This document shows, in pieces, positions 3,129-31,338 of a DNA stretch of 31,422 nucleotides. The notes under the pieces are model-generated. The model saw nothing but the letters and a program-made list of their open reading frames with translations, had not been told where the DNA came from and searched no databases. The stretch lies in IMG/VR virus record IMGVR_UViG_3300005918_000081, positions 1 through 31,422 of that record, one strand, 5' to 3'. Each line of letters opens with the position of its first letter. The stretch's first letter is position 1. The stretch is from a virus. The translations under genes and the position numbers were made by a program.

Positions 3129-6100
3129 TCATTCCTTAATTGCGTTTCTGAAATTAGGATTGGTGTTGTATTCGTCCATCACAGTGCTTATAATAAGTTC
3201 CCTGCCATTAAATGTTCTGCCTGTTTCCCTCATAGATACCGGGGCGCCCTTGTTATCTACATTGATTGATACAGCTATCTTTCCCCGGCTCATGTCCATC
3301 GCTGGCATTCCTAATCCTCCAGTATAGCTTCCAGATGGAGCAGGGCTTGGAGATAATAAATCTAATATAGAAGGCGTTCCCGGAAGACGAGGTTTGCCTT
3401 CCCCAAACATTGCATATAATAAATCAGCAGCAGCTACATCTGCTATAAACCGCTTGAAACTATTTAATATACCATCAAATAAGTCTTTAAAGAAGCTTTT
3501 AAACGTTCCACCCGTATCCATGATATTATAAATAGAATCAGACCAAGCAGATTCAATAGATTTTAGCGTACTTACAAACGTATCCTTCCATGTAACACCA
3601 GTTCCGGCTGGAGGTGCAAACACTGTTCGTAAAGCGTTGCTCCATTCTAATGCAAGTTTCCCCATTTTTTTTGAAGAGTTTTCTGTGGCGCCAGAAACGT
3701 CTTTCATGTTATTTATATATTTCCCCATTTCTCCATTAAGCTCTTCTATTCTTTTTGTTATCAGAGAAAATCTTGCGTCTGGCTCTGTCATAAAAGCTTT
3801 AAACATTTTGTTCAAATTAGCTCCATAGCCTTTCATTCCCAATAAAAGCCGCCCTAATAAGCTATCCGTATTTTCTACTTTGATATCAACTAAATCCAAT
3901 GCCCCTGCAAAATCTACCTTAATCTGTTTTGCTACTGATTCTGTCGTGGTTTCCCATAATTTACGAAACGCAAATGCTCCCTCTGCCGCAGGCTTACCAA
4001 ACGAACCCGACACTCCATATGTTTTTTTATTCTTTGAGGCAAACATGCCAAGCTTAGCATCATATTCATCTAACGCCTTGCCAGCTTGATACCATCCATA
4101 TCCGAATCCTACTGCTCCTAAAATTAACCCGCCCGGTACCCCCGCTAGGGCGCTTCCTGTCGCTCCCCCTGCAAACGCTGAACTCAACACAATACCTGCC
4201 GTGCCAACCGCTTCTAAAGCTGTTTCTCTGACTGATTTGGCTAATTCGTCTCTTATTTCTTTGTTTGTTTGCTTCCATATTGATCGGAACACATATAGTG
4301 CCGCTATTAATGCGATGAATGGATTAGTTATTACGCCAGCCAGTACCACCAATTTTGTAGCAAGACTTGTAATAACAAGCAACAGCGGCCCACCGACAAG
4401 AAGGAGGGTAGCAATCGCGGCTGTCCACTTTAATGTGGTAGCTACGGCATTGCTATTAGCAGTGACATATGCCCTGTATTGACTAATCCTTGCCTTTAAT
4501 GATTCACCTACTCTCATAATTGCAGGAGCAAGCGTACCGCCCATAGTTATTGCAAGGCGGCTTACCTCCTTCCATAGCTGACCCATTTGCTCAGTAAAGG
4601 CTTTCATTTGTTTGCCAGCAACCCTTTCAGCCGTTCCACCTGCATTTTTTATTTCCGTTGCATATTTTCTGAGACCTACGGAACCTTCGTTGAACAATAC
4701 AATCTGTCCGGCAATGGCTCTACGTCCAAATAATACTTCAAATACCATGTTCTTGTATTCTTCGGAAGTTCCTTTAAGCTTATCGCTTATCTCTCCCATA
4801 ATATTGATGAAGGGTTTCATCTTACCTGAAGCATCATAGATATGTAAACCCAGCTTATATATGAGTCCTGCCATGTCACCTGTAGGCGACATAAGATTGG
4901 TCATTGCTCTGCGAAGGACTGTACCGGCCATGCTGTTTCCAGACACAACAGGCTTCCCATTACGCCTCACGATGAGCAGATGGTTTGGCACTTCAGCACA
5001 GAATACCTCACCATCATAGTCTATCCATTCGTTACAGGCAGGGAACTTGGAGCCATCCAGCCGGTCACCATGCACTCCTTTGTACTCCGTTGGATAATAG
5101 GCTGGTTCAAGCTGTTCACGCTTGATGCTTACTTTCCACTGGTCATACCGTGCTCGTATCTCACGTCCCTCTTTGTCATAATTTGAGAGGCTTCCTGCTT
5201 TTGATTTTATTACTGCTGTTGCAGACACACCGAGTTTCAAGGCTACTTCCATTGCCTGATCTGCCAACTGTTTTGATGAGGTATAATAACATTCATTGCA
5301 ATCCCCGTCACCTTCCATAAGGGCAGTGAGGAGCAGAGACAACAATCGCGGCGACCAGTCAAGGGCATACTTGGGTATGTGTTTCTCAGGCGTTTTTCCC
5401 AATGGCTTAACTGCGCGCCATATTTGTTCATTGGCAAGCGTAAACCCGTCTTTGCATTCATTCACCGTTACTGGCAATTTGGCGAGTACTTCCCGCATTC
5501 TATCCCTGACTTTACCCCTATTCTGAGTAATCCTAATTCTATAATTTCCTTTCCTGAAATCACAGGAGCCCTCCGAGATATACCAGCCGAGGAATGTAGC
5601 CCAGACATCGGCGTTTATCTCCATAGGTGCTATATTTTTTACCCAGCTACTTCTATTCTGTTTGAATCCCAATAGTTGAACATTTTGCATGTCCCAGCCA
5701 TCCCAAGTCAATCCACCAGCTTGATACTTGACCTCTTTCCCGTCCACCTCGTGAGCATATTTCACCTCAAACTCGTCATGTCCGCGCCGTTTAACCCACA
5801 TGCGGTGATCCGGGGTTACACATAAGTCTATTCCCCGATTGGCTACATGATACATTTTGCCTTTATGGTGATAACGAATAAGTTTGGTTGATTTCTGGTA
5901 TTCAAGTCCGCCGGTATCAGGATTACATGTAGCGAATTCATCGCTTGCGACAACTTCATCCCACTTTATCCATCCACGTTTCACCAATACCTCAGTTTGG
6001 TCGTCATAACAACCTTTTATACCAGCGTTTGCCATAACTCCAAGCATAGCAGTAGTTTCAGCCAATGTGTTATTTGTAAGTCTTGCAGTTGAAGCACCAT

Positions 6101-6635
6101 ATGTAAGGGCTTGATCGAGATCCCGGAAGTTCTGATTGGAACTAATAACTGTTTTTGCTAATTGGTCAACTATTATTCGTGTGTTTGCAAACTCAAGACC
6201 GAACGCACGAGTAATATCTACTAAGCCCTCTACCGTGGAAGAAAGCTCAGAACCCATTGCACGAGACAGCATGATAGTGTCATTAAACGCCTGCATCTGT
6301 TCGGTGACTGTTAAACCCGCTGATCCGAGGTAGTAAAATGCTTGGGCGGTTTGCGTGGCGGCTTTGTTCCACTTTACCGAGGCGTCTAATGCCATTTCTG
6401 ACATTTGAACAAATTGTTCTGCAGATGTTTCACTAACCGAAGTAGCGTGACGGATGGCTTTATCAAACTTACCAAATTCACGCTCTATAAGAAGCAAAGA
6501 GCCAGCGCCTACAACCCCTAATTTTATAAATGAGGAGCTAAGCTTGTTAATGGATGTGTTGATGCCGACCATCGGCCCACGCCATCCTGCTGTATTTAAC
6601 TTTAAATATCCGGTTACTGAACCAATGTTAAACAC
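3129..6635 (-). CDS. Phage tail tape measure protein (TP901 type), interrupted by an intein
   Basis: 1168 residues as translated; removing the intein (residues 209-567) leaves an 809-residue tape measure protein. The N-terminal part (about 55-210 and on from 568) is the TP901-like core: FDKAIRHATSVSETS, the LTVTEQMQAFNDT stretch, and the highly conserved region ANAGIKG/SMAGTVLRRAMTN, which the intein splits. Two hydrophobic stretches follow (IATLLLVGGPLLLVITSLA and a Gly/Ala-rich one near residue 840), possible membrane-channel segments. The C-terminus is typical of the region that binds tail tip proteins. The start is GTG at 6635 with AAGAGG upstream, overlapping the chaperone frame by 8 nt. 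At about 0.15 nm per residue the spliced protein would set a tail near 120 nm (inference). Unspliced product should be non-functional. Confidence 0.93.
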   Translation of the reverse strand: MFNIGSVTGYLKLNTAGWRGPMVGINTSINKLSSSFIKLGVVGAGSLLLIEREFGKFDKAIRHATSVSETSAEQFVQMSEMALDASVKWNKAATQTAQAFYYLGSAGLTVTEQMQAFNDTIMLSRAMGSELSSTVEGLVDITRAFGLEFANTRIIVDQLAKTVISSNQNFRDLDQALTYGASTARLTNNTLAETTAMLGVMANAGIKGCYDDQTEVLVKRGWIKWDEVVASDEFATCNPDTGGLEYQKSTKLIRYHHKGKMYHVANRGIDLCVTPDHRMWVKRRGHDEFEVKYAHEVDGKEVKYQAGGLTWDGWDMQNVQLLGFKQNRSSWVKNIAPMEINADVWATFLGWYISEGSCDFRKGNYRIRITQNRGKVRDRMREVLAKLPVTVNECKDGFTLANEQIWRAVKPLGKTPEKHIPKYALDWSPRLLSLLLTALMEGDGDCNECYYTSSKQLADQAMEVALKLGVSATAVIKSKAGSLSNYDKEGREIRARYDQWKVSIKREQLEPAYYPTEYKGVHGDRLDGSKFPACNEWIDYDGEVFCAEVPNHLLIVRRNGKPVVSGNSMAGTVLRRAMTNLMSPTGDMAGLIYKLGLHIYDASGKMKPFINIMGEISDKLKGTSEEYKNMVFEVLFGRRAIAGQIVLFNEGSVGLRKYATEIKNAGGTAERVAGKQMKAFTEQMGQLWKEVSRLAITMGGTLAPAIMRVGESLKARISQYRAYVTANSNAVATTLKWTAAIATLLLVGGPLLLVITSLATKLVVLAGVITNPFIALIAALYVFRSIWKQTNKEIRDELAKSVRETALEAVGTAGIVLSSAFAGGATGSALAGVPGGLILGAVGFGYGWYQAGKALDEYDAKLGMFASKNKKTYGVSGSFGKPAAEGAFAFRKLWETTTESVAKQIKVDFAGALDLVDIKVENTDSLLGRLLLGMKGYGANLNKMFKAFMTEPDARFSLITKRIEELNGEMGKYINNMKDVSGATENSSKKMGKLALEWSNALRTVFAPPAGTGVTWKDTFVSTLKSIESAWSDSIYNIMDTGGTFKSFFKDLFDGILNSFKRFIADVAAADLLYAMFGEGKPRLPGTPSILDLLSPSPAPSGSYTGGLGMPAMDMSRGKIAVSINVDNKGAPVSMRETGRTFNGRELIISTVMDEYNTNPNFRNAIKE
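4935..6011 (-). other. Class 1 intein with LAGLIDADG homing endonuclease, inside the tape measure gene
   Basis: An in-frame 359-residue insert (protein residues 209-567). Block A starts at Cys1 (CYDDQTEVLVKRGWIKWDEV). Block B holds T274-x-x-H277 (TPDHRMW). The two LAGLIDADG motifs are LGWYISEGS (acid E355) and LLTALMEGDGD (acid D443). Block F reads VFCAEVPNHLLIV, and block G ends VVSG-Asn567, followed by Ser568 as the +1 nucleophile. All splicing nucleophiles are present. The penultimate residue is Gly rather than the usual His, which a minority of active inteins tolerate. The flanks rejoin to GIKGSMAGT, the uninterrupted family motif. Sampled rows inside the insert (5041, 5341) have 32 and 31 G+C of 60, against 19 and 28 in tape measure rows 3841 and 6181, consistent with separate origin. 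Confidence 0.94.
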
Positions 6636-16699: not shown

Positions 16700-17325
16700 G
16701 CCTGTCCACTCCCTAATTGATTTAGTTTCGGGTGTGTGTGAAAATACTCTATATACTTTACCATTGAGATACGTTTATAGACACCCACATACCACTTGGC
16801 CGTAGTGAAATGGGATTTATCCGGTATTCTCCAATCCTTACCATAAAGAAACTCAAGGAACTCTTCCGCGGGATATGGAATCCTAACACTACTATCTATG
16901 AAATCAATAAAGTGGTCGCCTCTGTAGAAATCAGCAGACAATACACAACGGTTCTGCGGTATATGTGACAAGGAACATACCAAATTCTCTGGAGGATAGT
17001 AGTAGAGAAGATCAAAGTCTATTCTAAGCCCATGCTTGAAAGCCACAGCCCCAGAGTACAAATCCCCGTAGATTCGTGGCTCTATTGAATCAACATAGCG
17101 AAATCCAGCACCTTCGAGGTCTTTCTTCATGGCTACACGATCCCATTCTGTAGGTAGTACGCGTATATCAATGTCATGGTCATATGGAATAATACTACCA
17201 TCCCTATATGCTCCAAGTGCCGTACCACCAGTCAGCCAACACGTCAACTCGTGCTTATCCACTATCCCCTTCACCTCAGTATAGATTGCTTCCATTAATT
17301 TAATATCCATCACTTTATTACCCAT
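16690..17325 (-). CDS. LicD-family phosphotransferase
   Basis: 211 residues with the clear LicD signature WLTGGTALGAYRDGSIIPYD then HDIDI (D49, D51, D53 as the metal-binding acids), then DFDLLYYYPP and a helical end with a late IPYPAEEFLEFLYGKDW. LicD proteins attach phosphocholine or related CDP-activated groups to surface glycans. The ATG at 17325 has AAGGAG immediately upstream (rather close), and an alternative ATG at 17310 makes a TGATG junction with the preceding gene; which is used cannot be decided. Together with the second LicD-like gene and the cytidylyltransferase it suggests a phospho-substituent on a glycan. Confidence 0.87.
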   Translation of the reverse strand: MGNKVMDIKLMEAIYTEVKGIVDKHELTCWLTGGTALGAYRDGSIIPYDHDIDIRVLPTEWDRVAMKKDLEGAGFRYVDSIEPRIYGDLYSGAVAFKHGLRIDFDLLYYYPPENLVCSLSHIPQNRCVLSADFYRGDHFIDFIDSSVRIPYPAEEFLEFLYGKDWRIPDKSHFTTAKWYVGVYKRISMVKYIEYFHTHPKLNQLGSGQAWK

Positions 17326-19730
17326 TCTCCTTCTGTTTCCCCAAGACCCATTTTCACTCTTAACGAACGTGTTCCGGCTGGATCGTGTCTTATGTATTCC
17401 CTCGGCTTACCTTCCCACACCCAGCCCTTACCAGATGAATGTCCTAATCCGGGGAATTCTTTAATAATTTTATTAGATAGTCCGCGCAAATGTATATCTC
17501 TGGCTGCTAAATAACAAGGGGCGCCATGGTGGACATATGGATGGTATTTATTATAATTATACTTGTTTATAAGTTGGAAATAAGGGTGTAACATTTTCAT
17601 GCTTTCTTCAGCTTTGTGCTCTTTCTGGGCACCATATTCATATCCATCAAGTCCTGCTTTTTCAGTATACCCAACTCCGTATGTGTCAGGCTTCATCATG
17701 TCAAACATAGCATTAACGGGAGATTTTAGCATTTCTATGTCAGAGTCAAATATTAACAAATATGGCGTATTGGCTTTGTTTATTCCCATATGCATTCCAT
17801 TGCCGTGCCCTATGTTGTATCCCGGCTGTATCACAGTAGTTATGTCCGATGCTATGCTTTTTACATATTCAGCGCAAGGATCTCTCTTATCCGAACCGTC
17901 AATTATTATAATTGGCATGTCTGGGTGGAATTTACGAACAGATTCATATGCTCTTTGCATTAATGCTTTCGTGTTATAACACACAGTTATTCCGGTTATT
18001 TTAGGAAAATATTGCTCAACATTGTCTTTTGTTAATTTACCATCCAATATATCTACATATACTTGGCTATTGTGTCCTATCCATTTATTTAGCAGAGGTC
18101 TATCTTCTATATCGCGCCATTTCCCCATATACATTTTTTCTTGATGCCCAGCCCCTATACCTTTTCTTCCAGGCAATCCCTTAATCCCGACATATAACGC
18201 TTCTGGCTTGTCAAGAAACAAATAGCCTCTTGATTCTGCCATTGCATTATGCCACAGACTTATATCGAGATAATGCTTTAATGGTTGTCTTGTTAATAAT
18301 TCTACTTCTCTAAGATATGAGCTTCTAAAGCTCGTTTGCGCAAGAGAGGCATGGATAGTATTCCCGTGGATCGCTTCGGCGCCAGATGGCAGATGATAAT
18401 ATCTGCTGTGGCTGATACCAACTACTTCGTAATCGTCAAGTTTCTTTGATATTGTTTCTATATATTTAGGGGCATAATACTCATCGTCTTCAATGATTAT
18501 TATTTTTTCACCTCTAACGTAAGGGAAGGCAGCGTTTAAGTTAATATTTAATGTATGCTTGGGATCGTTTTTATTTGGCGTTCTTCTGATATATTCAGCA
18601 CTTTCAGGTGCTTTTGATGGTATCTTGCCGTCATCAACTACAATCCACTGATCCGGTCTTACTGTCTGAGCATCCATCCACTGCTGGCACAATGCTAAAG
18701 CCAAAGGACGATCTCCTGTAGGTGTTATTGCTGTTATTATTCCGGGTTTTGTCATTACAGATATTGCATTGGTTGGTATGCGAGGTTTCTTTGTTGCGAT
18801 TTTAGCGTAACTTCCAAATGGGAAGCATTTTAATTCAGATTTTGGGTTTAAATTAAAAACCTTTCTTCCTCCTGCTTTCAATGTTGGCGCAAATTTAGTG
18901 ATTTGCTTAATATACTGAGGATAAACGGCTTCTCCGTAATCTAACGGATAGCCATCATGCCACCACTTCTGCTTCCCTTGTTTATCACCGTGCATATCAA
19001 AACCAATTAAATATATTGGGTTCGCGCCAAGAGCGGCTGCCAAATTGATAGCACCATACCCGGAATTACCATTAAATTCTAATCGTTTCGTGCTGCCTAT
19101 TTTGTAACTTTCTGATTTGTCAACATCTATTAAATAAAAGTCTGGAGGATATGCTTCTGTCAACGCCATCCAAACTTTGTATCCTTCATATTCGCTAAAT
19201 TTTCGTTTTGATTCTTCTCCAAGCTTTCCAAGCTCTGCCCATCCCCATAGCTGGGGATCTACTCCGTACAATATGCTCGGTGTTATTTTTTCATATGCCC
19301 GGTTTATTCCTATTACTAATTCGCCTTGTAACAAGGATAAATCTAATTTATCCACACTTGGGCCGCCACCTATGATAAAACATCGCCTTCCCTTCCACGC
19401 TCCATCTTTTACATAGTCACAAAATCTTTTGGGGCCTAAAGGCGTTCTCTTGAATATGTTTTTATCATGACTTACATAAGCTGCTTTTGCGACTGCCGTT
19501 CGGTTTCTTTTGTTTCGTCTTGGTAAATCTGATATGGTAAGTATTTTCTTTTCTTGAGGGGAGTCTTTTACTGGGGCATTTGCTTTAGCTATACCACGTT
19601 CCCTTCCTCGTGGTAAATTTGAGGTAGACAACGCTATTTTATTTTCTTCTGGCTTTGTGTCTGGGGTTTGATCTTTATTAAGTTTATTTGCTTCAATAGT
19701 TTTCTTGCGAACGTGTCCCATTCTCAGCAT
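17310..19730 (-). CDS. Three-domain DUF115-like plus two GT-A glycosyltransferase fusion
   Basis: 806 residues from the ATG at 19730 (AAAAGGATAA SD); an upstream GTG at 19793 would run through a hairpin and is less likely. Order: a basic, probably disordered tail (1-105); a DUF115/Maf-like domain with CFIIGGGPSVDKLDL (117-131) and NGNSGYGAINLAAALGANPI then YLIGFDMHG (220-248); a GT-A domain beginning GIITAITPTGDRPLALALCQ with E414-DDE acidic site; and a second GT-A domain beginning GITVCYNTKALMQRAYESVR with D662-S-D664. DUF115 domains occur in flagellin glycosyltransferases (Maf) and related sialyltransferase-like folds. It is the largest cargo gene and the first after the capsid gene. Row 18541 has 18 G+C of 60, AT-rich like the phage. 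Donors and acceptors unknown. Confidence 0.85.
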   Translation of the reverse strand: MLRMGHVRKKTIEANKLNKDQTPDTKPEENKIALSTSNLPRGRERGIAKANAPVKDSPQEKKILTISDLPRRNKRNRTAVAKAAYVSHDKNIFKRTPLGPKRFCDYVKDGAWKGRRCFIIGGGPSVDKLDLSLLQGELVIGINRAYEKITPSILYGVDPQLWGWAELGKLGEESKRKFSEYEGYKVWMALTEAYPPDFYLIDVDKSESYKIGSTKRLEFNGNSGYGAINLAAALGANPIYLIGFDMHGDKQGKQKWWHDGYPLDYGEAVYPQYIKQITKFAPTLKAGGRKVFNLNPKSELKCFPFGSYAKIATKKPRIPTNAISVMTKPGIITAITPTGDRPLALALCQQWMDAQTVRPDQWIVVDDGKIPSKAPESAEYIRRTPNKNDPKHTLNINLNAAFPYVRGEKIIIIEDDEYYAPKYIETISKKLDDYEVVGISHSRYYHLPSGAEAIHGNTIHASLAQTSFRSSYLREVELLTRQPLKHYLDISLWHNAMAESRGYLFLDKPEALYVGIKGLPGRKGIGAGHQEKMYMGKWRDIEDRPLLNKWIGHNSQVYVDILDGKLTKDNVEQYFPKITGITVCYNTKALMQRAYESVRKFHPDMPIIIIDGSDKRDPCAEYVKSIASDITTVIQPGYNIGHGNGMHMGINKANTPYLLIFDSDIEMLKSPVNAMFDMMKPDTYGVGYTEKAGLDGYEYGAQKEHKAEESMKMLHPYFQLINKYNYNKYHPYVHHGAPCYLAARDIHLRGLSNKIIKEFPGLGHSSGKGWVWEGKPREYIRHDPAGTRSLRVKMGLGETEGEWVIK

Positions 19731-19745
19731 TACACTTATCCTTTT

Positions 19746-19775
19746 AAAACAAGGGAGACGGTGGCGACGCCTCCC
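19746..19775 (-). terminator. Rho-independent terminator/attenuator after the capsid gene
   Basis: On the minus strand GGGAGGCG - TCGCCAC loop - CGTCTCCC, followed by TTGTTTT. The stem is eight pairs with one G-U. The same hairpin on the plus strand would have an A-C mismatch, so the structure is better in the transcribed direction. It lies between the major capsid stop and the first cargo gene, and should reduce transcription into the island while leaving high capsid expression. Confidence 0.55.
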
Positions 19776-19799
19776 CTGCCCGGCACTGCCCACGGCTGA

Positions 19800-28742: not shown

Positions 28743-28820
28743 TTATTGCCTCCTGAGCTTCTCGTAGTCGAATACGTTTGAGCAGGATATAAGGAGTAGG
28801 ATGAACAGGAGCTTTTTCAT
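28743..28820 (-). CDS. 25-aa candidate lipoprotein
   Basis: ATG at 28820 overlaps the recT stop (TAATG) and has GAGGAG five bases upstream. The product begins MKKLLFILLLISCSNVF: a basic n-region, a leucine-rich h-region and a lipobox (L-I-S-C), giving a predicted 13-residue mature lipopeptide after cleavage before C13. The signals are unusually complete for a peptide this small. Similar tiny lipoproteins serve as superinfection-exclusion factors or Rz1-like spanins, but here the position is early. Confidence 0.6.
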   Translation of the reverse strand: MKKLLFILLLISCSNVFDYEKLRRQ

Positions 28821-29857
28821 TAGATCTCCTCTGGCTTACTCATTTCTTTTATGTATAATTTAATGGAATCAGGCTCTTCGTCTAGCCCGGTAATGAAAGT
28901 TGATGCCTCTTTAGTAGTCAAGTCTTTCATGCTTTGCAATTTTCTGTTAAACATTGTTTCTGCAAGCTTTATAGCATCGTCTTTATTGAGGTTATAGTCA
29001 TATTTTGTGGTTCCATAAATACGGGCGGTTTGTTTTCCTGACGCAAGAGGTGGGTTTGTATTTGTTTCCGGTCCTTTTGCTGGAGGCATCGGAGTATCAG
29101 GGGCTTGAGGTTGTTCAATTATTATTTCTTTAGACTTCACGAGATCGGCTAATTTCTCAGTTCGTGTCCTGCCGTCCGATTCATTGTTTTCATCAATACC
29201 AACGGCTCGGTTGTCTAATTCCATAGCTTTTTCAATATCAGGAGAGGATGGCAGATACTTAAACAATCTCCTTATTGTTGTTTTTCTCGCCATTTCAGCA
29301 TAATCAGTAGCCCATATATTGTCGGTTTTTGCCCTTTTCCTGATGTTGTCTATTTGTAATTTAGACATGAACTCATATATGGGTTCTTCATCCTTCAACC
29401 ATGCGATAGAATAAGCTCCTATAACTTGACCAGCACGACCATCTATACATGGTTTATGGACAAGCTTTGGATTCAGCCCATATTCGATAGAAAATATGTC
29501 TTTTTCGTAAACGACATGCGATTCAATCTTTGATACGATATTCGATCTTTTTGCTAAATCTATCATACCCCTATAGCCCGGCATGAATGTCGCAACGTTT
29601 TTATAGGCTATCATATAGGCATGTCCTTTTGCCGGGGTAAAATCAAGACCGAGTTCTGCCGCGTTTAAGATAGAAGTAAAAACGCTTTCAAGAGTACACT
29701 GTTGTAGTTTTTGATCTCTTCCGACTGCCAATAGTGCTGATTTACAAAAACGGATTGGCTCAACATGAGCGGGTAATGCTTTGATTATTTCAGCTTGACT
29801 CGATGTGATTTTGGTTTCTAAGTTGTTGATAATTGCCAATGAATTATTCGTGTTCAT
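28820..29857 (-). CDS. recT: RecT-family single-strand annealing protein
   Basis: 345 residues. Conserved RecT features: CTLESVFTSILNAAELGLDF then TPAKGHAYMIAYKN, AYSIAWLKDEEPIYEFMS, and TDYAEMARKTTIRRLFKYLP. Binds ssDNA and promotes annealing/strand exchange. The tail after residue about 225 is Pro/Thr-rich with a short final domain, probably a partner-binding end. SD is AAGGAG, ATG at 29857. Paired with the YqaJ-type exonuclease upstream, as in RecE/RecT-like systems, for phage recombination and replication. Confidence 0.93.
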   Translation of the reverse strand: MNTNNSLAIINNLETKITSSQAEIIKALPAHVEPIRFCKSALLAVGRDQKLQQCTLESVFTSILNAAELGLDFTPAKGHAYMIAYKNVATFMPGYRGMIDLAKRSNIVSKIESHVVYEKDIFSIEYGLNPKLVHKPCIDGRAGQVIGAYSIAWLKDEEPIYEFMSKLQIDNIRKRAKTDNIWATDYAEMARKTTIRRLFKYLPSSPDIEKAMELDNRAVGIDENNESDGRTRTEKLADLVKSKEIIIEQPQAPDTPMPPAKGPETNTNPPLASGKQTARIYGTTKYDYNLNKDDAIKLAETMFNRKLQSMKDLTTKEASTFITGLDEEPDSIKLYIKEMSKPEEI

Positions 29858-29882
29858 AAGGTACTCCTTAGTTATTATTTAA

Positions 29883-29938
29883 GGGGCGGTATAGGCTCCG
29901 GCACCTAACGGTCAACAGTGTGGACTGCTGACCGCCCC
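29883..29938 (-). ncRNA. Structured three-way-junction leader between wHTH gene and recT
   Basis: On the minus strand an outer stem GGGGCGGT (29938-29931) pairs with ACCGCCCC (29890-29883). Inside it, CAGCAGT-CCAC-ACTGTTG forms a second hairpin and TAGGT-GCCGGA-GCCTA a third. A competing longer hairpin (CGGTCAGCAGT/ACTGTTGACCG, 29934-29909) excludes part of the outer stem, giving two alternative folds. The G-U pair falls on the minus strand only. It lies 26 bases before the recT ATG, with no U-run, so it is more likely a regulatory RNA or stability element than a terminator. Confidence 0.5.
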
Positions 29939-29942
29939 ATGT

Positions 29943-30236
29943 TCATCTGACTAGCCTATATTCATACAGACCTTTGCCGTAAGAACCAGACCTCTTCGGT
30001 TTAATTATATGACTACCAAATCTTACTTTCCGTAAGTTTCTTAATTGAGCGCTTACACTTGCTTCCGGTGCGCCAGTTCCTTTTGATATATCAGACAACT
30101 TATGCCACTTGCCGTCACTCATGAAATAGTGTATTTTCCCAAGTTGAGTCGTGAGCCTTGCATAATCCTTCTTAGGTTGATAATCGGCTCCATCAAAATG
30201 AACTTTTTTCTTCTTAAAGTAATTTAAAAAAGCCAC
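29943..30236 (-). CDS. Winged-helix DNA-binding protein
   Basis: 97 residues, GTG start at 30236 with GGAGGG SD. KIHYFMSDGKWHKLSDISKG then APEASVSAQLRNLRKVRFGS and a GLYEYRL end is the winged-helix pattern of small phage regulators (a helix, recognition helix SVSAQLRNLRK, then wing). Probably a transcriptional regulator of the early region or a replication accessory. The product is basic. Sits between a small membrane peptide and recT. Confidence 0.72.
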   Translation of the reverse strand: MAFLNYFKKKKVHFDGADYQPKKDYARLTTQLGKIHYFMSDGKWHKLSDISKGTGAPEASVSAQLRNLRKVRFGSHIIKPKRSGSYGKGLYEYRLVR

Positions 30237-30251
30237 TTTACCCTCCTTCCT

Positions 30252-30389
30252 TTACCTCGCAAAAAAGGATGAAATTACTGCGAATAGTCCAACTACAAAA
30301 AGATAGAATCGAGTAAGTTTGTTTTTAACAATGTCTAAGCCCATTATACACATTAACACCATAATCATATATCCTTGCCATTCAGTCAT
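30252..30389 (-). CDS. 45-aa two-helix membrane peptide
   Basis: ATG at 30389 with AAGGAGG SD. MTEWQGYMIMVLMCIMGLDI has a hydrophobic helix, followed by VKNKLTR and a second hydrophobic stretch YLFVVGLFAVISSFF. It should span the membrane twice. No family recognised. The strong SD and compact placement between the exonuclease and wHTH genes support translation. A small inhibitor or anchoring role is possible. Confidence 0.68.
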   Translation of the reverse strand: MTEWQGYMIMVLMCIMGLDIVKNKLTRFYLFVVGLFAVISSFFAR

Positions 30390-30405
30390 AATTTACCCTC
30401 CTTCC

Positions 30406-31338
30406 TTATTTAACCTTTCTTGTCCGAGCAACCCTATAAGAGCTTGTAGTAGATACTGCATCAAATGCATCAGGGTACTCTTTAGCCAGCATTTTCTTAT
30501 CAATACCCTTTCTTGATTGTTCAAAATAGGTAAGTTCCCGTCCGTCGTTGAGGTTGATGCCTTCAGCATCGCCTAAATGTTGTAATATTTCCAAGAAGGA
30601 TGCATCTACCTTCTTTATCATCTCACTTAGTTCTTTTTTTGACTGCTCCCAATTAACGATAAGGGTATTGTCAATATCCTCAGCATACTTTTCCGGGACA
30701 CGTATTATGCGTTTAAAGGTGTCGATCTTGCCGGGTTCGGCAATAGGTGGAGGAGTTTTTGTTAAAACATAATCATTCCAGAACTGTTCACCTCTGTTAA
30801 TAATGGCTTTGATTATCTCTTCGTTGCGCTCAACGACATACATCTCTTCTGTTAAGCCCCATTTGCCTATCAGTACGGCGATATAAGCCTTATCTAAGCC
30901 AGTGCATAGCATTTGCTGTTGAACCTGTAAATTGACCCTTAATGGCACATCGTCAGTTCCCGGTTCTCCCCATTCGTCAGATAGCCCGGTGGTTTTACAC
31001 TCGACTATTATTAGTTTAAGTTTCTCATAGCCAAGACCGTCGGTATTGCAGGCAAACACAGGATGTTCTTTACAGACAAAGTTCATGTGATCTGGATCGG
31101 TATCGATTGCTATACCAAGATATTCCTCGGCATATTCAATCAGACCTGATTCATAGCGATTGCCACGCTTTAATGCATCGCCTTCCAAAGGCTTCAATTC
31201 AAACACCTTTGAAGCCCAGATATCTTTTGCAGTAGCAAATGGGTTAAGGCTACATCCGTCTTCATCTGTAAACAATGCCGATATGTCGCTGGCGCCGATA
31301 TGGAGCTTACGTTCTTTTAATTGTTCTTTTGTAATCAT
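30406..31338 (-). CDS. YqaJ-like (RecE/lambda-exonuclease superfamily) exonuclease
   Basis: 310 residues. Motifs: KLHIGASDISALF (11-23), RGNRYESGLIEY (58-69, E63), FACNTDGLG (D100) and IVECKTTG (111-118; E113, K115), the PD-(D/E)xK active site of YqaJ viral recombinases. Resects dsDNA ends, giving ssDNA for RecT. A C-terminal helical half follows. SD GAGGAT upstream of the ATG. Paired with recT, as expected for a phage recombination module. Confidence 0.93.
   Translation of the reverse strand: MITKEQLKERKLHIGASDISALFTDEDGCSLNPFATAKDIWASKVFELKPLEGDALKRGNRYESGLIEYAEEYLGIAIDTDPDHMNFVCKEHPVFACNTDGLGYEKLKLIIVECKTTGLSDEWGEPGTDDVPLRVNLQVQQQMLCTGLDKAYIAVLIGKWGLTEEMYVVERNEEIIKAIINRGEQFWNDYVLTKTPPPIAEPGKIDTFKRIIRVPEKYAEDIDNTLIVNWEQSKKELSEMIKKVDASFLEILQHLGDAEGINLNDGRELTYFEQSRKGIDKKMLAKEYPDAFDAVSTTSSYRVARTRKVK

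Follow-up and report, generated by a model that had tools for sequence, protein, structure and literature searches.

A predicted LAGLIDADG homing intein at a conserved site in a viral tape-measure protein

Most descriptions of phage inteins concern enzymes of replication, packaging and nucleotide metabolism, and the length of a phage tail is set by the length of its tape-measure protein (TMP). The stretch of viral DNA analysed here (IMG/VR record IMGVR_UViG_3300005918_000081, 31,422 nucleotides, hereafter the window) contains a TMP gene with a long in-frame insert. Is this insert a working intein, how did it come to occupy a tail ruler, and would it control when that ruler is completed? A preliminary description made from the letters of the window had placed a homing-type intein in the TMP at a GIKG/S site, positions 4935-6011. 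We found this placement correct to the base, and alignment bore out the residues it had named (Cys1, TxxH, E355, D443, Asn567 and Ser568) together with the length of 359 aa.

The insert and its host gene

The TMP open reading frame (3129-6635, minus strand) begins with GTG and has no internal stops. The encoded protein belongs to the TP901-type tape-measure family, because it matched TIGR01760 (E 6e-42) in two stretches, one on each side of the insert. It also matched PF10145 (1.4e-29) and the PHROG tape measure proteins (best 1.5e-62). When the insert is removed from the window, GIKG joins SMAGT. The features of the gene are as follows.

3129..6635, minus strand: TMP gene; precursor of 1168 aa, 809 aa after predicted splicing
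6012..6635, minus strand: N-extein, residues 1-208, ending ...NAGIKG; joined to the C-extein in intein-less orthologs
3129..4934, minus strand: C-extein, residues 568-1168 plus stop; begins SMAGTVLRRA
4935..6011, minus strand: predicted intein, 359 aa, Cys1 to Asn359; protein residues 209-567, between Gly208 and Ser568
6009..6011, minus strand: Cys1, predicted N-terminal splicing nucleophile; invariant in 30 aligned relatives
5805..5816, minus strand: block B TxxH (T66-P-D-H69); T66 and H69 invariant
5712..6011, minus strand: Hint splicing domain, N-terminal part, intein residues 1-100 (edge approximate), from the model and PDB matches
5106..5621, minus strand: LAGLIDADG endonuclease domain (PF14528), taken as intein residues 131-302, which aligned to I-DmoI
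5571..5573, minus strand: first LAGLIDADG acid E147 (protein E355); more than 90% conserved, invariant in TMP set A4
5307..5309, minus strand: second LAGLIDADG acid D235 (protein D443); invariant
4935..5036, minus strand: Hint domain, C-terminal part, intein residues 326-359, with blocks F and G
4998..5000, minus strand: block F Cys338, at the class 3 nucleophile position; invariant in alignments A3 and A5
4935..4940, minus strand: penultimate Gly358 and terminal Asn359, from the alignment
4932..4934, minus strand: Ser+1 (Ser568), predicted C-extein nucleophile, from the sequence and intein-less orthologs

The insert has the residues of a class 1 intein, namely Cys1, the block B TxxH, and Asn359 followed by Ser568. 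Its exteins also fit this class, as the intein-less proteins are homologous and contiguous, with GIKGSMAGT in ten contigs. The penultimate His that is common in class 1 but does not define it is absent, and Gly358 stands in its place. Class 3 inteins have no nucleophile at position 1 and carry a Trp-Cys-Thr triplet in blocks B, F and G (PMC5050341). We rejected this class, because Cys1 is present and two members of the triplet, Trp and Thr, are missing; counted from TxxH and from the terminal Asn, B:12 is Met (with a Trp next after it) and G:5 is Ser357. A block F Cys beside Cys1 is common to the relatives of the window intein; this Cys was part of the seed of the viral-contig scan described below, but not of the seed used for bacterial and archaeal genomes.

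The two LAGLIDADG motifs read FLGWYISEG (E147) and LLTALMEGDGD (D235), and LAGLIDADG_3 (PF14528) matched the insert with a score over its gathering cut-off. An AlphaFold2 model of the intein, built from 30 aligned sequences, had a pLDDT of 93.2 and a pTM of 0.91. In VIA-align comparisons it matched PDB inteins at Z 20-26, the closest being PI-PkoII (2cw7; Z 26.4, 316 residues, 4.5 A) and TliVMA (7qsu; Z 26.2, 300 residues, 4.1 A), and residues 131-302 matched I-DmoI at Z 14.7. Many Hint structures were matched at Z 15-26, in agreement with a Hint fold. We conclude that the insert is very probably a class 1 intein with a predicted LAGLIDADG homing endonuclease, allelic to a family specific for one TMP site. 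All the tests that sequence and structure allow agree that, by mechanism, it is an ordinary homing intein.

A second contig (L002) carries the identical intein in exteins that are 99.5-99.8% identical to those of the window. Chance resemblance is far too improbable to account for these matches. The GC3 of the window intein was 0.45 versus 0.35 in its own exteins; in seven others, intein GC3 was lower than extein GC3. No second intein was found within the window. Elsewhere in the window, an 827-aa protein (17310-19793, minus strand) combines an MptE-like region, scoring under the Pfam cut-off, with a family 2 glycosyltransferase, and it has a PHROG sialyltransferase match, here in a virus genome. 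Genes for a RecT-like annealing protein and a RecE-like exonuclease lie near each other at 28820-31338 (minus strand).

Empty and occupied sites in related proteins

Searches with intein-less TMPs gathered intein-less orthologs from ten contigs (L003, L004 (= L094), L090-L093 and L095-L098), two of them near-identical, giving nine distinct TMPs. The preliminary description had named a lack of related TMPs continuous at this point as evidence against an intein; all ten contigs read ANAGIKGSMAGT, with no residue gained or lost at the junction, and the joined extein GIKGSMAGT that it had predicted is the same in the nine distinct proteins. To judge from these alignments, the empty site is exact at GIKGSMAGT. 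The intein-less open frames encode 801-886 aa, as compared with 809 aa for the spliced and 1168 aa for the unspliced window protein. The GIKG and AGT residues around the junction were invariant in 12 TMPs, including some that are only 24-30% identical, and by this measure few parts of the TMP are as conserved as the insertion site. For L003, one of the intein-less TMPs, AlphaFold2 gave a poor model (pLDDT 46). The 52-kb virus contig of L004 (G002), in which the TMP site is empty, has a related intein in another gene (L011, 73-2619); this intein is 28% identical, ends ...WCGQ/T, and lies in a gene that, to judge by its sequence alone, probably encodes a large terminase.

When viral contigs were scanned with the intein alignment, matches occurred in many host proteins, and the best ones were all in TMPs at the GIKG/S site. 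Intein identity to the window was 76% in L006, 74% in L030 (partial), 66-67% in L012, 63% in L013, 59% in L014/L017, 44-45% in L015 and 43% in L016. L109, with an intein 70% identical, came from a scan of the genomes of bacteria and archaea. The site is filled in ten distinct TMPs, namely those of the window, L006, L109, L012, L013, L014/L017, L015, L016, L021/L023 and L024. When the joined flanks were aligned, the insert fell in one homologous column in the window, L012, L013, L014, L015, L021 and L024, and in L006, L109 and L016 the junction motif itself is the same as in the window. Two other TMP inteins lie at different positions, 4 residues downstream of the main site in L018 and 44 alignment columns upstream in L043, and they group together on the tree (96/99). 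According to these alignments, TMPs have at least three intein sites, one of which is used repeatedly. Among 224 intein loci examined, at least 13 lay in a TMP, and two of these were duplicates; because the scans were seeded on conserved peptides, such counts of relatives are lower bounds and not rates.

Several of these loci have features of their own. L109 (1-6738; JAOZHP010000094.1) is a 13-kb contig in a metagenome-assembled genome (MAG) named Bathyarchaeota, with the same intein in its TMP and a gene order downstream of the TMP that resembles that of the window; this placement could mean either that the host is an archaeon or that the contig was binned wrongly. L034 and L062 have ORFs of 2456 and 2467 aa, respectively, which look RNA-polymerase-like by eye and have an apparent second intein-like insert besides the matched one. 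In Prevotella phage Lak-A1 (L007, 3194-5320), a related intein lies in a 708-aa ORF with one internal TAG codon, TAG being read as Gln.

Homing and vertical descent

Comparison of intein and extein identities distinguished two kinds of relatives. In the closest TMPs, the two had diverged equally from the window (intein/extein identity of 76/76 for L006 and 70/70 for L109), so recent homing is unsupported among these proteins; long vertical residence with losses could explain the pattern. In L012 the values were 67/53, and in more distant TMPs they were 63/26 (L013), 59/27 (L014) and 45/28 (L015), although extein values as low as 26% approach the point below which identity ceases to be informative. 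Under equal descent, L013 and L014 should look like L015. The simplest reading of these values is therefore that the intein moved horizontally between distant TMPs at the same codon.

The distribution of the intein was also sporadic, as close TMP orthologs either have or lack it. On the extein tree, whose resolution is low (good support for 5 of 17 inner branches), intein presence costs five changes, at least three of which are forced by well-supported branches, and the empty L096 is a well-supported sister of the intein-bearing L006. The inteins of the window, L006, L109, L012, L013 and L014 formed one group (94/97), separate from those in other host proteins.

Between the window and L006, pS was 0.86, that is, synonymous sites were saturated, while pN was 0.16 across the entire intein, 0.14 within the endonuclease part and 0.04 over the last 34 residues. 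These values point to purifying selection acting on the splicing part as well as on the endonuclease part, and both functions look maintained. Selection on splicing alone could be a partial cause of the low pN, yet the endonuclease part is equally constrained.

In the proposed mechanism, Cys1, Ser+1 and Asn359 would excise the insert after translation and join GIKG to SMAGT, yielding the 809-aa TMP. The freed endonuclease would then cleave TMP genes that lack the intein, at their conserved GIKGS codons, and repair would copy the intein gene into the cut TMP gene. We infer excision, cutting and copying from the known biochemistry of the intein family. The intein may persist because its target is in a highly conserved stretch of an essential gene and because splicing hides its cost. 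Since TMP length sets tail length, virions would give a physical read-out of splicing: at 0.15-0.159 nm per residue (the latter ratio from PMC6132909), the predicted tail is ~120-130 nm for the 809-aa TMP, and much longer if the protein is unspliced.

The equal divergence in close TMPs (L006 and L109) also accords with a different account, in which the insert splices but its endonuclease is dead and the element is now inherited only vertically in this lineage. We consider this unlikely, as both catalytic acids are kept and pN in the endonuclease part stayed at 0.14 while synonymous sites reached saturation. Inactive inteins exist, and splicing in the window is itself predicted from sequence, so splicing might have been lost or reduced to cleavage, with the TMP working as two pieces or with the insert retained. 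Such a loss is highly improbable given that none of Cys1, TxxH, Asn359 and Ser+1 is missing, that each is conserved and that the Hint regions are under purifying selection; bacterial intein-like domains are without the +1 nucleophile (PMC7664689). Interruptions of an intron-like kind with endonuclease genes are known in TMP genes, as in Vibrio phage ICP1 (PMC10448857), which might suggest an RNA intron, or else an assembly chimera, in place of an intein. There is hardly any room for either, because the insert consists of 359 in-frame codons without stops and has the fold and residues of an intein. A chimera was rejected because the same structure occurs in several independent contigs, and a group I intron or other structured RNA because Rfam had no matches in the window.

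A homing intein remains our preferred reading. The preliminary description had suggested that the penultimate Gly makes slow or conditional splicing possible. The suggestion was not supported. Gly was the penultimate residue in 46 of 51 relatives (the subset with parsable ends) and in nearly all genome matches, whose search seeds were without that end of the intein. Kelley et al. 2016 (PMC5050341) report complete splicing for the Bethlehem RDF intein, which also has a penultimate Gly, and slow splicing once that Gly is changed to His. Together, these observations indicate that a penultimate Gly is normal in this subfamily. One could still propose that the window intein splices slowly or conditionally and in this way acts as a checkpoint, with tail length left undetermined until some signal arrives: conditional inteins exist, with examples in PMC7156551, and the conserved Cys338 and Cys1 could pair as a disulphide. 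We regard this as improbable, since neither the penultimate Gly nor the block F Cys is unusual in the subfamily, whatever the host protein, a phage intein with a penultimate Gly splices fully (PMC5050341), and close relatives are intein-less, so that no switch is required. The broader proposal that inteins of the TMP family gate or time tail assembly, holding the precursor until a signal arrives, such as a redox change at Cys1 and the block F Cys, seems to us equally doubtful.

Comparison with known inteins

The preliminary description had called the TMP an uncommon host. This was upheld by the literature searched and not by the uncultivated viruses, in which the allele recurs. In the open-access literature searched, no TMP intein was found. 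Mycobacteriophage inteins have been reported in terminases, portal, nucleotidyltransferase, methylases and others, and the word "tail" is absent from the main text of that report (PMC5050341). No named phage covered 80% of a TMP-plus-intein query, and there was no tape-measure annotation among the named-phage intein matches listed; in three unannotated INPHARED intein matches (SRB7757, LR756508 and BF766P4), no TMP exteins were found.

Among known inteins, that of the corynephage P1201 thymidylate synthase (YP_001468924.1, annotated as a hypothetical intein) aligned with the window intein over its full length by tblastn (E 4e-21) at ~27-29% identity. As points of likeness, the P1201 intein has Cys1, VTPNH, the block F Cys and an end of the form ...RRNGKPVWSGN, but its host is a nucleotide-metabolism enzyme. 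The nucleotidyltransferase intein of mycobacteriophage ET08 (cluster C1) also aligned over its full length (~26-30% identity) and has Cys1, VTPNH, the block F Cys and an HGN end, but it occupies another host protein and another site. PI-PkoII and TliVMA have the same Hint plus LAGLIDADG architecture; in contrast, their hosts are archaeal cells and their identity is 18%. The portal inteins of cluster C1 mycobacteriophages (PMC5050341) and a minor-head-protein intein in a cryoconite phage (PMC7468147) are likewise in phage structural proteins, although the host proteins differ. ICP1 resembles the window in having a TMP gene interrupted by a homing endonuclease; however, splicing there is at the RNA level, with an HNH gene between two TMP fragments and no intein (PMC10448857).

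Within the scope searched, which gives no proof of first discovery, the TMP is thus apparently an intein host undescribed before, and the host range of inteins now extends to the tail ruler. Movement between TMPs that are less than 30% identical suggests that the target is a few conserved codons, not close kinship. Compared with the known systems, what is new is the TMP as host, together with the repeated filling of a single TMP codon in viruses that differ greatly from each other.
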